64,000 nucleotides of DNA from Rhodanobacter sp. FW104-R8 (GTDB taxonomy: Bacteria > Pseudomonadota > Gammaproteobacteria > Xanthomonadales > Rhodanobacteraceae): NCBI RefSeq assembly GCF_001617365.1, contig NZ_LVJR01000027.1, positions 62,001 to 126,000 on the forward strand, given 5' to 3'. Positions 2,865 to 43,535 of the stretch are shown piece after piece (position 1 is the stretch's first letter; each line of letters starts with the position of its first letter). Below the pieces are notes generated by a model that was not told the origin of the DNA, did no database searches, and saw only the letters and a list, made by a program, of their open reading frames with translations. The position numbers were made by a program, and so were the translations under genes.

Positions 2865-4145
2865 TTACAGGGAGCGGCGCGGCGAAACCAGCAGATCGCC
2901 GAACATCAGCCCCGCCACCAGCGACACCAGCAGGGTGATCAGCAGCAGGCCGGTGTCCATGCTCAGCGTGGTATCCCGTTCGAGCAGGAACGACACGCTG
3001 CGGAAGCCGACACTGCCCGGCACCAGCAGCAGGATGCCCGGTTCGCGGACCACCGCGCCCGGCCGGTGCACGAAGCGCGCGAAGACATTCGCCAGCGCGG
3101 CCAGCAGCAGCCCGCCGAGGAAGACGCCCACCGGCGCGGCGGGCAGCGAGCCGGCGATCGCACCGCCCCAGCGCGTGGCGAGGTAGCCCACCGCCACCGC
3201 CACGATCACCACCGGCCAGTCGCGGCGGGCCGCACGGAACAGGATCGCGAACGCGATCGCGGCGACCAGCAGGGCCGGGTAGTCGGTCCAGGCGGGCAAC
3301 GCCGGCAGCGCGAAGTCGCGTGCGGTGATGCCCACCGCCGCGCACAGCTGGGTCGCGGCAATCGTGCCGAAGGTGAGCTTGAGCAGGGTCGACATCGCGC
3401 CGGCCATGCGAGCCATGCCGGACACCAGGTGCTGGCTGGAAATCTCGCGCACCGCGGTGGTCAGCGACATGCCCGGCACCAGGATGATCAGGCTGGCCAG
3501 CACTACCGACCTGATCGCCAGCGGCACCACGAACGCGCTCACCATGATCGCCACCGTGGTGGCCACCAGCGCGCTGATCGCGTCGCTGGCCGCGGCCAGC
3601 TGCGGCCGGCTGGCCGCCAGTAGGGTGATGCCGCCGATGATCATGCCGATCACGCCGGCGACCAGCAGGTCCACCCAGGAGCTGTGCAGGAACAAGGCCG
3701 CGATGCTGGCCGCGGACAGGCCGTAGCTGGCGATCGCGCCGATCTTCTCGCGCCGCGTGTCGGGCCGGCCCAGTTCGCGCAGAAGGTGGAAACCCTCGCG
3801 CAGGCCCAGTTCGCCGGCGATCGTGCGGTCGGCGATGTCGTCGGCCTGGCACAGCCGCTCCAGGTTCACCTCGCCCGGCGCCAGCCGCATCACCTGGGTG
3901 GTCTGCGCCACGCCCTCCTCGCCCTGGGCCAGGTCGGCGAAGGAGATGATGATCGCGGTAGGGCTGGACCACACGTCGGCGGACAGCCCCAGCCGCTGCG
4001 CCACGCCGGCGATCGCCATCTCCAGGCGCGGCGCGGAGGTGCCGTACTGGTGCAGCCTTCGCGCCAGTTCCAGCACGAAGGCGATGCGCGTGGTCAGCGC
4101 CGTGGTGGCGAACTGCTGCCGGCCGATGGCGTCGCCGGCGCTCAT
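2865..4145 (-). CDS. Threonine/serine exporter, ThrE family
   Basis: An inner-membrane protein of 426 residues with the two-part ThrE layout: an N-terminal soluble ThrE domain (about 15-130, LELARRLHQYGTSAPRLE and SSPTAIIISF), then about ten membrane segments covering the two ThrE transmembrane repeats. The family exports threonine and serine using the proton gradient in Corynebacterium; the substrate here is inferred. The ATG was chosen because it overlaps the nfeD stop as ATGA, a sign of translational coupling. An upstream in-frame extension exists but reads through nfeD and looks non-coding. Last gene of the minus-strand qmcA-nfeD group. Confidence 0.85.
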   Translation of the reverse strand: MSAGDAIGRQQFATTALTTRIAFVLELARRLHQYGTSAPRLEMAIAGVAQRLGLSADVWSSPTAIIISFADLAQGEEGVAQTTQVMRLAPGEVNLERLCQADDIADRTIAGELGLREGFHLLRELGRPDTRREKIGAIASYGLSAASIAALFLHSSWVDLLVAGVIGMIIGGITLLAASRPQLAAASDAISALVATTVAIMVSAFVVPLAIRSVVLASLIILVPGMSLTTAVREISSQHLVSGMARMAGAMSTLLKLTFGTIAATQLCAAVGITARDFALPALPAWTDYPALLVAAIAFAILFRAARRDWPVVIVAVAVGYLATRWGGAIAGSLPAAPVGVFLGGLLLAALANVFARFVHRPGAVVREPGILLLVPGSVGFRSVSFLLERDTTLSMDTGLLLITLLVSLVAGLMFGDLLVSPRRSL

Positions 4146-4591
4146 GCCGCGGCGCGCACCTGCAGCGTGGTGCCAGCGACGGCGACCACCTCCACCGTGG
4201 CGCCCCGCGGCAGGTCCGGCCCGCTGACCAGCCATTGGCCATCACCCACGCGGGCCTTGCCGCGGCCGTTGACGATCGGCTCGACCAGCTCGTAGCGCTG
4301 CCCGATCATCTGCTCGGCGCGCCGGTTCAGGCGCTCGTCGCCGGACGCGCGCCGCTCCAGCCGTGGCCGCAGCCAGCGCGCGTAACCCACGCAGGAAGCG
4401 AACGCGAGCAGGCCGAACAACAGCGCCTGCGCCAGCACGCCCAGCGCGGGATCGACCCACAGCACCACGCCCATCGCGGCGGCCGCCAGGCCGATCCACA
4501 GCAGGAAATAGCCGGGCAGCAGCAACTCCCCGGCGATCAGCAGCAAGGCCAGGATCCACCACAGGTAATGCATTGCAATCGACTCGAACAT
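4142..4591 (-). CDS. NfeD-family membrane protein
   Basis: A short-form NfeD protein of 149 residues. It has two to three membrane helices in the first 75 residues (LWWILALLLIAGELLLPGYF and GVLAQALLFGLLAFASCVGY) and a C-terminal OB-fold of the NfeD type (about 95-147, GRGKARVGDGQWLVSG). NfeD proteins pair with SPFH/stomatin proteins such as QmcA, and the matching gene lies just upstream on the same strand, separated only by a DUF559 gene in a repeat element. Its exact function is unsettled; roles in membrane microdomains and quality control are proposed for the family. The stop overlaps the start of the downstream exporter gene. Confidence 0.85.
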   Translation of the reverse strand: MFESIAMHYLWWILALLLIAGELLLPGYFLLWIGLAAAAMGVVLWVDPALGVLAQALLFGLLAFASCVGYARWLRPRLERRASGDERLNRRAEQMIGQRYELVEPIVNGRGKARVGDGQWLVSGPDLPRGATVEVVAVAGTTLQVRAAA

Positions 4592-4632: not shown

Positions 4633-4673
4633 TCCCCTCTCCGATTCATGGGAGAGGGGCTGGGGGAGAGGGC
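4633..4673. repeat. Palindromic repeat, downstream arm of the DUF559 element
   Basis: A hairpin CCCCTCTCC...GGGAGAGGGG followed by CTGGGGGAGAGGG. The inverted counterpart lies near 5042-5081. The last residues and stop codon of the DUF559 gene are encoded inside this arm. Confidence 0.7.
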
Positions 4674-5002
4674 GCTTCGACGATCAGACGAATCTGCTCC
4701 AGCACACTCTCCGTGCGATTCAATACATCGTGGTTCCAGAAACGCAGCACGAGCAGTCCTTGCGCTGCCAGCCACTGATCACGTTGGCGATCATAGGCGA
4801 CTTGCTCGCAATGTTGGCCGCCATCGACTTGGACGACCAAGTGCCGTTCAACGCAAATGAAATCGACGATGTACGGCCCCATGGGTTTCTGCCGTTTGAA
4901 TTTCAGGCCCAGGAAGCGATGGGCACGCAGGTGGTACCACGGGCGCTGCTCCGCGGGTGTCTGGCCACTGCGCATGGCCTTGGCGTTTGCGAGGTTGTCC
5001 AT
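4646..5002 (-). CDS. DUF559 endonuclease-like protein (Vsr/PD-(D/E)XK fold)
   Basis: A 118-residue single-domain protein. It shows the DUF559 pattern: LRAHRFLGLKFKRQKPMGPYIVDFICVE is split as GLKFKRQKPMGPYIVDF (first acidic strand), then LVVQVDGGQH, then LRFWNHDVL near the C-terminus, with a helix after it. DUF559 is related to Vsr mismatch nucleases, so a DNA endonuclease is the likely ancestry. The usual Glu before the VDG motif is Gln here (VVQVDG), so activity may be lost or altered. The protein ends in EAPSPPAPLP, encoded by the palindromic repeat. The gene splits the normally adjacent qmcA-nfeD pair, which suggests insertion. Fold assignment is firm; function is not. Confidence 0.8.
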   Translation of the reverse strand: MDNLANAKAMRSGQTPAEQRPWYHLRAHRFLGLKFKRQKPMGPYIVDFICVERHLVVQVDGGQHCEQVAYDRQRDQWLAAQGLLVLRFWNHDVLNRTESVLEQIRLIVEAPSPPAPLP

Positions 5003-5041
5003 GCCCTCTCTCCCACCGATGCCCTCTCCGTCGACATCGTA

Positions 5042-5081
5042 CCCTCTCCCCCGCCCCTCTCCCGCAAGCGGGAGAAGGGCG
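5042..5081. repeat. Palindromic repeat, upstream arm of the DUF559 element
   Basis: CCCTCTCCCCCGCCCCTCTC followed by CCGCAAGCGGGAGAAGGG, the inverted counterpart of the arm near 4633. Together they bracket the DUF559 gene, as the two palindromes of the shorter repeat elements in this window bracket a 40-base spacer. Confidence 0.7.
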
Positions 5082-5088
5082 CACGACA

Positions 5089-6030
5089 TCAGCGCGGCGA
5101 TGGCATCTTGATGGCGGCTTGCTGCTGGCCGAGCGATTCCTTCGCCAGCTCGCCGATGCCGGCCAGTGCGCCGATCACGCCGGTGGCCTCGATCGGCAGC
5201 AGCAGCATCTTCTGGTTCGGCGAGGCGGCCATCGCCTTCAGCGCCTCGACGTAGTTGTTGGCGACGAAGTAGTTCAGCGCGTTGACGTTGCCGTTGGCGA
5301 TCGACTCGGACACCATCGTGGTCGCCTTCGCCTCGGCCTCGGCCGAACGTTCGCGGGCTTCGGCGGCGCGGAACGCGGCTTCCTTCTCGCCTTCGGCGGC
5401 GAGGATCACCGACTGCTTCTCGCCCTCGGCCTTGAGGATCGCCGCCTGGCGGAAGCCCTCGGCGTCGAGGATGTTGGCGCGCTTCTCGCGCTCGGCCTTC
5501 ATCTGCCGCGCCATCGCATCGACCAGGTCGCGCGGCGGCGAGATGTCCTTGATCTCGATGCGGTTGACCTTGACGCCCCACGGATGCGTGGCCTCGTCCA
5601 CCACTCGCAGCAGCTTGGCGTTGATCGCGTCGCGCTGGCTCAGGCTCTCGTCCAGGTCCAGCGAGCCGAGCACGGTACGGATGTTGGTCATGATCAGCGC
5701 CAGCGTGGCCTGCTCGAGCTGGGCCACCTCATAGGCCGCCTTGGCCGCGTCCAGCACCTGGTAGAACACCACGCCGTCCACGCGCACCACCGCATTGTCC
5801 TTGGTGATGACGTCCTGCGAGGGCACGTCCAGCACCTGCTCCATCATGTTCATCTTGCGTCCGACCGCCTGGTAGATCGGGACCAGGAAATGCAGGCCCG
5901 GGGTAAGCGTGCGGGTGTACTTGCCGAACGTCTCCACCGTCCACTCGAAGCCCTGCGGCACGATGCGCACCAGCTTGACCACGCCGATGACCACGACGGC
6001 CACGACGACCAACGCAAGCAGCTGTCCCAT
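5089..6030 (-). CDS. qmcA: SPFH/Band 7 (stomatin-like) protein, QmcA family
   Basis: A membrane-anchored 313-residue scaffold protein. One N-terminal helix (about 3-22) is followed by an SPFH/PHB domain to about residue 180 (IVPQGFEWTVETFGKY, DISPPRDLVDAM). A long Ala/Glu coiled-coil comes next (about 183-240, repeats of AEGEKQ and AEGEKEAA), then a hydrophobic tail. This is the paraslipin/QmcA layout; such proteins form large rings in the inner membrane with NfeD partners. The start four codons downstream of the first ATG was chosen because GAGG lies six bases before it. It is the first gene of the minus-strand group with nfeD and the exporter gene. Confidence 0.85.
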   Translation of the reverse strand: MGQLLALVVVAVVVIGVVKLVRIVPQGFEWTVETFGKYTRTLTPGLHFLVPIYQAVGRKMNMMEQVLDVPSQDVITKDNAVVRVDGVVFYQVLDAAKAAYEVAQLEQATLALIMTNIRTVLGSLDLDESLSQRDAINAKLLRVVDEATHPWGVKVNRIEIKDISPPRDLVDAMARQMKAEREKRANILDAEGFRQAAILKAEGEKQSVILAAEGEKEAAFRAAEARERSAEAEAKATTMVSESIANGNVNALNYFVANNYVEALKAMAASPNQKMLLLPIEATGVIGALAGIGELAKESLGQQQAAIKMPSPR

Positions 6031-6091
6031 TGCCCACCTCATTCCATGTGAAGAAGGCTTGAGTATAGGCGAGGCCGCGCCGCTCCGGCCG

Positions 6092-19167: not shown

Positions 19168-19274
19168 CTCCTCCCCCTGCAAAGCAGGGGGAGGTCGGGA
19201 GGGGGTAAAGCTTTTGACGTCAAGATCAAAAGCACCCCTCCCCAGCCCTCCCCTGCTTTGCAGGGGAGGGAGAA
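19168..19274. repeat. GGGGAGGG-type composite inverted repeat between pairs 1 and 2
   Basis: The left hairpin CCTCCCCCTGC/GCAGGGGGAGG and right hairpin CCCTCCCCTGC/GCAGGGGAGGG are inverted to one another, with a central AAGCTTTTGA...CAAAAGC stretch. Other copies lie near 22701, 41043 and 43420. Confidence 0.85.
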
Positions 19275-22700: not shown

Positions 22701-22831
22701 TCCTCCCCCTGCATGTCCCAAAGGGACTTCCTTCGGTCGCAGGGGGAGGCTGGGAGGGGGTGATGCTTTTGACTTTGCAAGCAAGAGCTTTACCCCTCCC
22801 CAGCCCTCCCCTGCGCGCAGGGGAGGGAGAA
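22701..22831. repeat. GGGGAGGG-type composite inverted repeat with insertion
   Basis: The same element as at 19168, but the loop of its left hairpin is enlarged by about 25 bases that contain a small palindrome of their own (GTCCCAAAGGGAC). It fills the gap between the adaptor and ATPase genes. Confidence 0.8.
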
Positions 22832-41042: not shown

Positions 41043-41158
41043 CTCCCTCCCCTGCTCACAGGGGAGGGTTGGGGAGGGGTTGCTTTTGATCTTGCTCGCC
41101 AGTCCGCAGCTACCCCCTCACCTAAAACCAGCCGCCCCTGCCCTGCAGGGGGAGGAGC
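41043..41158. repeat. GGGGAGGG-type composite inverted repeat before ribH
   Basis: Left hairpin CTCCCTCCCCTG...CAGGGGAGGG and right CCCCTGCCCTGCAGGGGGAGG, with a partly degenerate spacer. It belongs to the family at 19168, and lies between the LD-carboxypeptidase and ribH genes. Confidence 0.8.
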
Positions 41159-41184
41159 GGAAGCGCGGAGGCGGGGACGGGACG

Positions 41185-43419: not shown

Positions 43420-43535
43420 CTCCCTCCCCTGCAAAGCAGGGGAGGGCTGGGGTGGGGTCCGCCTTTGATCTGATCTGTCAAATCAAAAGCGTTACCCCCT
43501 CCCAGCCTCCCCCTGCTTCGCAGGGGGAGGGGCAA
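43420..43535. repeat. GGGGAGGG-type composite inverted repeat between ribE and ribBA
   Basis: Left hairpin CCCTCCCCTGCAAAGCAGGGGAGGG split as CCCTCCCCTGC / GCAGGGGAGGG, and right CCTCCCCCTGC / GCAGGGGGAGG, with a TTTGATC-rich spacer. It fills the gap between the two genes. Confidence 0.85.

Follow-up and report, generated by a model that had tools for sequence, protein, structure and literature searches.

A DUF559 nuclease gene and the palindromes that flank it probably constitute a minimal mobile element (we put the probability at roughly 70%), which would be REPIN/RAYT-like, with a Vsr/homing-type PD-(D/E)XK nuclease as its enzyme. Comparison of sequences documents the architecture of the element, a pan-bacterial association of gene and repeats, the specificity of subfamilies for repeats, gene-less derivatives, gain and loss at sites, and purifying selection.

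The DUF559 element between qmcA and nfeD

The window (the whole 64-kb stretch of DNA that was analysed) carries between qmcA and nfeD an element of ~445 bp, whose single gene is DUF559 (Table 1). A sequence-only reading of this DNA had claimed that the gene splits the two host genes between inverted palindromes, and both the Pfam matches and the coordinates of the repeats confirm it. The PF04480 match spans residues 3-107 of the 118 of the protein. The ends form an inverted pair of about 32-40 bp, each made of a GC-rich hairpin and an inward G-rich tail, the tail resembling a second copy of the purine arm of the hairpin; along the gene direction, the element reads CCCTTCTCCCGCTTGCGGGAGAGGGGCGGGGGAGAGGG ... 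gene ... CCCTCTCCCCCAGCCCCTCTCCCATGAATCGGAGAGGGG. The last codons (..PSPPAPLP*) derive from the tail and the palindrome, and the TGA stop lies inside the hairpin loop, as the same reading had held when it ascribed the end of the gene to the palindrome. Its description of the gene as cargo of a repeat element stands with respect to the element, candidate enzyme being a better label than cargo for the gene. The motif GGGGAGGG is present in 14 copies in the window against 2.7 expected, a number reached by 0/100 shuffles. The exact string GAGAGGGG by itself showed no enrichment, the window having 3 copies where 2.1 are expected; the significance rests on the paired structure and on the comparative data.

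Table 1. Positions of the element, its host genes and the short derivatives in the window
Feature	Positions	Strand	Remarks
DUF559 nuclease gene (PD-(D/E)XK, Vsr-like), 118 aa, the one gene in the element	4646..5002	-	Pfam PF04480, E=4.7e-39
Terminal inverted repeat, 5' end of the gene	5042..5081		Hairpin 5052-5081 and inward tail 5042-5051
Terminal inverted repeat, 3' end of the gene	4634..4673		Hairpin 4634-4659 and inward tail 4661-4672; encodes C-terminus and stop
Whole element between qmcA and nfeD	4634..5081		Absent in 24/29 congeners
nfeD (PF01957), host gene downstream of the insertion	4142..4591	-	Pfam match
qmcA-type Band_7 gene (PF01145), host gene upstream of the insertion	5089..6042	-	Pfam match
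Gene-less (MITE/REPIN-like) derivative	19170..19270		Left and right group-B element ends, 29-bp spacer
Gene-less derivative, same group-B type	22702..22827		Left hairpin loop enlarged
Gene-less derivative, same group-B type	43422..43530		Opposite orientation
Degenerate derivative	41045..41162		Intact hairpin and tail 41045-41078, other end decayed

DUF559 is a domain of unknown function, mostly annotated just as "putative endonuclease". The AlphaFold2 model of the window protein (pLDDT 90) has 3HRL, 3R3P and Vsr (1CW0/1VSR) among its best fold matches; with this predicted model 3HRL and 3R3P lead, Vsr coming further down. By sequence, the only solved relatives found are 3HRL, a DUF559 protein of the gonococcus (E=3e-40), and 3R3P, the I-Bth0305I catalytic domain (E=4e-4). 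Residues E18, D47, D60, H64 and D71 are invariant in the family, and in the acidic/His set E18, D47, E58, D60 and H64 each position is invariant or conserved at >90%, the window copy having Q58. E58 (E-x-D motif) is found in nearly all relatives, the four orthologues at qmcA-nfeD among them, and the window copy has Q58; a single base change may have weakened its nuclease activity. Together, the five qmcA-nfeD orthologues are under purifying selection, with dN/dS of 0.06-0.22. Decayed DUF559 copies exist as well, an in-frame stop being present in some of them (L229, L021, L028). YcjD, another DUF559 protein, has been classed with the PD-(D/E)XK enzymes as a relative of Vsr (PMC1189080), and the DUF559 protein VsrA of Caulobacter is required for the SOS response in a methyltransferase mutant and was proposed to be a mismatch-repair enzyme (PMC12907096). 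The Vsr/homing-type relatives, together with the link of VsrA to DNA damage, make the DUF559 protein a plausible DNA-cutting enzyme.

Repeats, sites and gene-less copies

For each gene, the 250 bp upstream were compared with the 250 bp downstream and the highest-scoring ungapped inverted match was taken, a score of at least 14 being positive. With one DUF559 locus per genome from 76 genomes and 26 families of the phylum, terminal repeats were found at 62% of the 76 loci vs 1.0% of 574 neighbouring ORFs of the same stretches, called with a simple ORF caller (p=1e-18); the positive loci cover 19 of the 26 families. In the same way, about 76% of 80 loci from GTDB contigs of many phyla were positive vs 2.1% of 190 neighbours (p=7e-30), after discounting L237, whose score of 96 comes from a run of N. 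These 80 loci had been found by a protein pattern drawn from a 6-sequence alignment, a broad 28-sequence alignment having no conserved stretch. By record name, positive loci belong to Pseudomonadota, Desulfobacterota, Gastranaerophilales (Cyanobacteriota), Nitrospira, Binatia, Dehalococcoidia, Bacteroidia, Planctomycetota, FCPU426 and a Euryarchaeota bin, many being metagenome bins in which single taxon assignments may be contamination. True Vsr genes had terminal repeats in 0/30 cases. Flanking palindromes are therefore no peculiarity of the window copy, the point at which the sequence-only reading had placed itself at risk.

The median length is 466 bp (10-90%: 417-597) for the elements that have terminal repeats, and perfect repeats of 36-57 bp are seen at five loci (L273, L267, L282, L275, L280). 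The suggestion that DUF559 C-termini usually run into palindromes was borne out, the reading frame entering the 3' repeat in 70/104 loci with terminal repeats. About one third of the DUF559 loci present no strong paired repeat within 250 bp. Enterobacteriaceae are an example, both palindromes being downstream of the gene there. The Synechocystis and Deinococcus plasmid records and a gonococcal record have palindromes beside DUF559, but their tails point outward or the orientation is direct. In the Neisseria gonorrhoeae locus (L205, NZ_CP119140.1), two near-identical palindrome units flank the DUF559 gene in direct orientation, and this gene appears to encode the 3HRL protein of the PDB (entry name NGO0050). 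The DUF559 elements of the genus of L143 (G213) possess terminal repeats >100 bp, with an extra hairpin inserted between arm and tail, an arrangement that, we presume, recalls rhizobial RIME.

The unit motif GAGAGGGN{2,3}GGGGNGAGGG, scanned in 398 genomes, was present in 80/131 genomes with a clear DUF559 gene vs 17/267 without (OR 23, p=5e-32); this co-occurrence is correlational, though it holds when stratified by family (odds ratio 36, p=2e-13). Group-B DUF559 genes of the genus terminate in a unit of their own, GGGGGAGG-NN-GGGAGGGGGT. All 13 congeners that have a group-B gene carry this B-type unit, at a mean of 20 copies, compared with 6/23 congeners that lack the gene (p=1.3e-5); it was absent in 10/13 congeners carrying only other DUF559 groups. 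The genome of the window has 19 copies and relatives have up to 36, the reversed control pattern giving 0 everywhere. Judging from these counts, a particular DUF559 subfamily goes with a particular repeat type within the genus.

The presence of the element was then compared between species, empty sites being from different species and the genomes being drafts, mostly one per species. Among 29 congeners with a readable qmcA-nfeD site, five hold the element with orthologous DUF559 proteins (G000, G021, G008, G014, G001) and 24 are empty, with a stop-to-start gap of about 7-22 bp. DUF559 is thus no fixed part of this gene pair, whereas its constant presence there would, by the sequence-only reading's own standard, have refuted that reading. 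That reading had also expected empty sites with precise junctions: the empty sites exist, and the junction at qmcA-nfeD is not exact to the base because the flanking bases have diverged. The cleanest junction found is at ligA-epmA, where the genes are adjacent in the 27 congeners read and the DUF559 element is present in G008 and G014. Comparison of G008 with G001 places the element between GAAGAGC and GCTTCT, precise within 1-2 bases. The G001 sequence may represent either the target before insertion or the scar of an excision, an ambiguity that arises because the GAAGAGC-GCTTCT motif is missing from the other empty congeners. No palindrome was present at the empty qmcA-nfeD and ligA-epmA sites of the congeners compared, and no target-site duplication was evident by eye in the elements laid out with terminal repeats.

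At ligA-epmA of G008 (L044, G008:C44:49551-53862), the DUF559 gene has a complete REPIN-like doublet on either side, and the reading frame continues through the second of them into epmA, so that a fused EpmA is predicted. We rejected pilC-pilD as a precise empty site, as its filled alleles replace a region with other repeats in the empty ones and the junction is unclean.

The genome of the window also carries a group-B element (L035), of which the first end reads CCTCCCCCTGC..GCAGGGGGAGG-TT-GGGAGGGGGTTAGGCTTTT and the other, unlike end reads GACCCCACCCCA-AC-CCCTCCCC..GGGGAGGG. Three short elements of the window correspond to both of these ends minus the gene, and about 29-37 bp separate their tails; the sequence-only reading had described such elements with two facing hairpins, and they are present as described. 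By their ends, they are the kind of non-autonomous derivative to be expected from the group-B DUF559 element. At the 19.2- and 43.4-kb sites, relatives carry either this element, repeats of other types, solo palindromes (G021, G034, G027, G032) or nothing, and this varied content indicates frequent turnover. Depending on the congener, the convergent gap at 43.4 kb (L357-L386) holds the B type, a GGGAGAAGG-TGCCCCGAAGGGGC-GGATGAGGG type or others. It is as though intergenic gaps were interchangeable landing sites.

In E. coli, the DUF559 gene ycjD (NC_000913 1351407-1351760, L417; also L204) is located between sapF and fabI, with a pair of GGGTGAGGGG-type palindromes after the gene. Places of the GGGTGAGGGG type number 8-21 in the sampled strains with ycjD vs 2-12 in those without, a difference confounded by phylogroup. 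We presume that the repeat beside ycjD may be Box C and that rhizobial DUF559 repeats recall RIME. Box C is a listed known repeat (PMC2267715). The ycjD place was rejected as a strain-level empty site, as strains without the gene carry the eefRABCD operon there instead (PMC12817139).

Possible mechanism and alternatives

In the mechanism that we propose, terminal inverted repeats, each a hairpin and a G-rich tail, surround the single nuclease gene in an element of typically 415-600 bp. The DUF559 protein would recognise the hairpin-plus-tail end and would nick or cut DNA there, and host repair or replication would then copy or move the element. Gene-less derivatives that keep both of its ends are dispersed in the genome, like MITEs or REPINs near transposase genes. 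Host repair must be invoked because, to our knowledge, PD-(D/E)XK nucleases have no strand-transfer activity. We infer mobilisation by the DUF559 nuclease, i.e. a protein acting on the ends and thereby driving their spread, along with the insertion chemistry. Counter-evidence comes from the 6 congeners having B-type repeats without a group-B gene, from the 17 genomes having the motif without a clear DUF559 gene, from the one third or so of DUF559 loci with no strong paired repeat and from the mismatch-repair role proposed for Caulobacter VsrA (PMC12907096).

The same protein may work in a homing mode, in which it cuts solo GC-rich palindromes (often terminators) and repair of the break copies in an element sharing their arms. 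Such a process would yield an arm-insert-arm structure without target duplication, and it agrees with several observations: the nearest characterised relative is a homing endonuclease, both end hairpins are also direct repeats of one another, and the near-perfect terminal repeats are compatible with gene conversion. The solo palindromes at the orthologous 19.2- and 43.4-kb sites suit it too, but they are equally possible as deletion products, as in the case of solo LTRs, and the lack of a palindrome at empty qmcA-nfeD and ligA-epmA leaves those sites unexplained. We regard homing as possible, somewhat short of even odds. Considering the Vsr fold of the model, the strong purifying selection and the SOS response caused by Caulobacter VsrA in a methyltransferase mutant (PMC12907096), DUF559 could also be a repair- or restriction-type nuclease that stabilises or corrects palindromes as a Vsr-like host function, with no transposition. 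We find this improbable, since it explains neither the repeats bounding the gene itself, nor the retention of both ends in gene-less copies, nor the presence and absence at sites.

A coincidence of habitat, where terminator-like palindromes and horizontally acquired DUF559 genes share gaps with no functional link, might be expected from how common palindromes are in the gaps of these genomes and from the different repeat types that one gap holds in different species. It is very unlikely in view of the structure found at 62-76% of DUF559 genes vs 1-2% of neighbours and 0/30 Vsr genes, of the subfamily-specific pairing of gene and repeat type, and of the long, nearly identical terminal repeats. 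As for a RAYT/Y1 tyrosine transposase mobilising the palindromes with DUF559 genes as hitch-hikers, the plan and dispersal are indeed REPIN-like, and RAYT genes can have flanking TIRs, some of them sharing a GGGGWSAS motif (PMC3733652). Nevertheless, Y1_Tnp was not associated with the motif in the 398 genomes (OR 1.4, p=0.16; stratified p=0.39), no match to Y1_Tnp (PF01797) was found in the window's genome, and no GTAG tag accompanies the hairpins in the sequences read. On the Y1_Tnp tests, RAYT was rejected as the main cause; it is largely refuted and, in our judgement, extremely unlikely.

GC-rich palindromic repeats are common in bacterial non-coding DNA, and for many families we know of no mobiliser. 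The DUF559 nuclease is a first candidate mover for such a widespread class of bacterial repeats. We give an even chance to the broader proposal that DUF559 represents a new class of mobilising enzyme, with PD-(D/E)XK nucleases and host repair moving hairpin-ended DNA, which would explain pan-bacterial GC-rich intergenic palindromes, perhaps including Box C and RIME. In titles and abstracts of the openly licensed literature we found no link of DUF559 (COG2852) to repeats, and LTPTLSP had no match in that literature. The tie between DUF559 and repeats gives the domain a testable function, and gene-repeat co-evolution becomes measurable, as with REPINs and RAYTs. If the mobile-element reading is true, a nuclease outside the known transposase classes would sustain a mobile repeat family, and predicted protein tails such as ..PSPPAPLP or ..LTPTLSP.. 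would be read-through of repeats, LTPTLSP being found here only in spurious frames of repeat-bearing loci.

Comparison with known systems

E. coli Box C, Rhizobium RIME and Brucella Bru-RS are short repeats for which we know of no mobiliser. Compared by description, they resemble the repeats of DUF559 elements as GC-rich palindromic intergenic sequences, but no DUF559 link is made in the papers found. The very-short-patch-repair endonuclease Vsr shares the fold, YcjD-type proteins being described as its relatives (PMC1189080), whereas true Vsr genes had no flanking repeats (0/30). I-Bth0305I (PDB 3R3P), a Vsr-like EDxHD homing endonuclease, is the sole solved non-DUF559 sequence relative below E=0.01 (E=4e-4) and comes second by fold to the window DUF559 model (TM 0.62/0.73). 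That enzyme resides in a phage group I intron, whereas the DUF559 gene is intron-free, is bounded by hairpin terminal repeats of its own and has gene-less derivatives. Insertion sequences and MITEs likewise have terminal inverted repeats around one gene and short derivatives with the same ends; the DUF559 element differs from them in its total of about 450 bp, its hairpin ends, the lack of a recognised transposase and the lack of a visible target duplication.

The closest system in plan is REPIN/RAYT, in which REP palindromes accompany an IS200/IS605-like Y1 transposase (PMC3116915, PMC2817692) and a genome may hold several specific gene-repeat pairs (PMC3116915, PMC2817692, PMC3733652). The DUF559 enzyme differs in being an unrelated PD-(D/E)XK nuclease in a genome where no HUH/Y1 gene was found, and its units have a G-rich tail in place of a GTAG or CGTC tag. 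The two systems agree in the palindrome-bounded gene, in the short inverted doublets dispersed in many copies over intergenic gaps, in the asymmetric tag of the hairpin, which is the G-rich tail in DUF559 elements, in the several gene-repeat pairs, each specific, that one genome can contain, and in mostly vertical inheritance. The earlier likening to REP sequences with a RAYT transposase was apt, and it extends to the subfamily-specific pairing of gene and repeat and to the gene-less derivatives found here.
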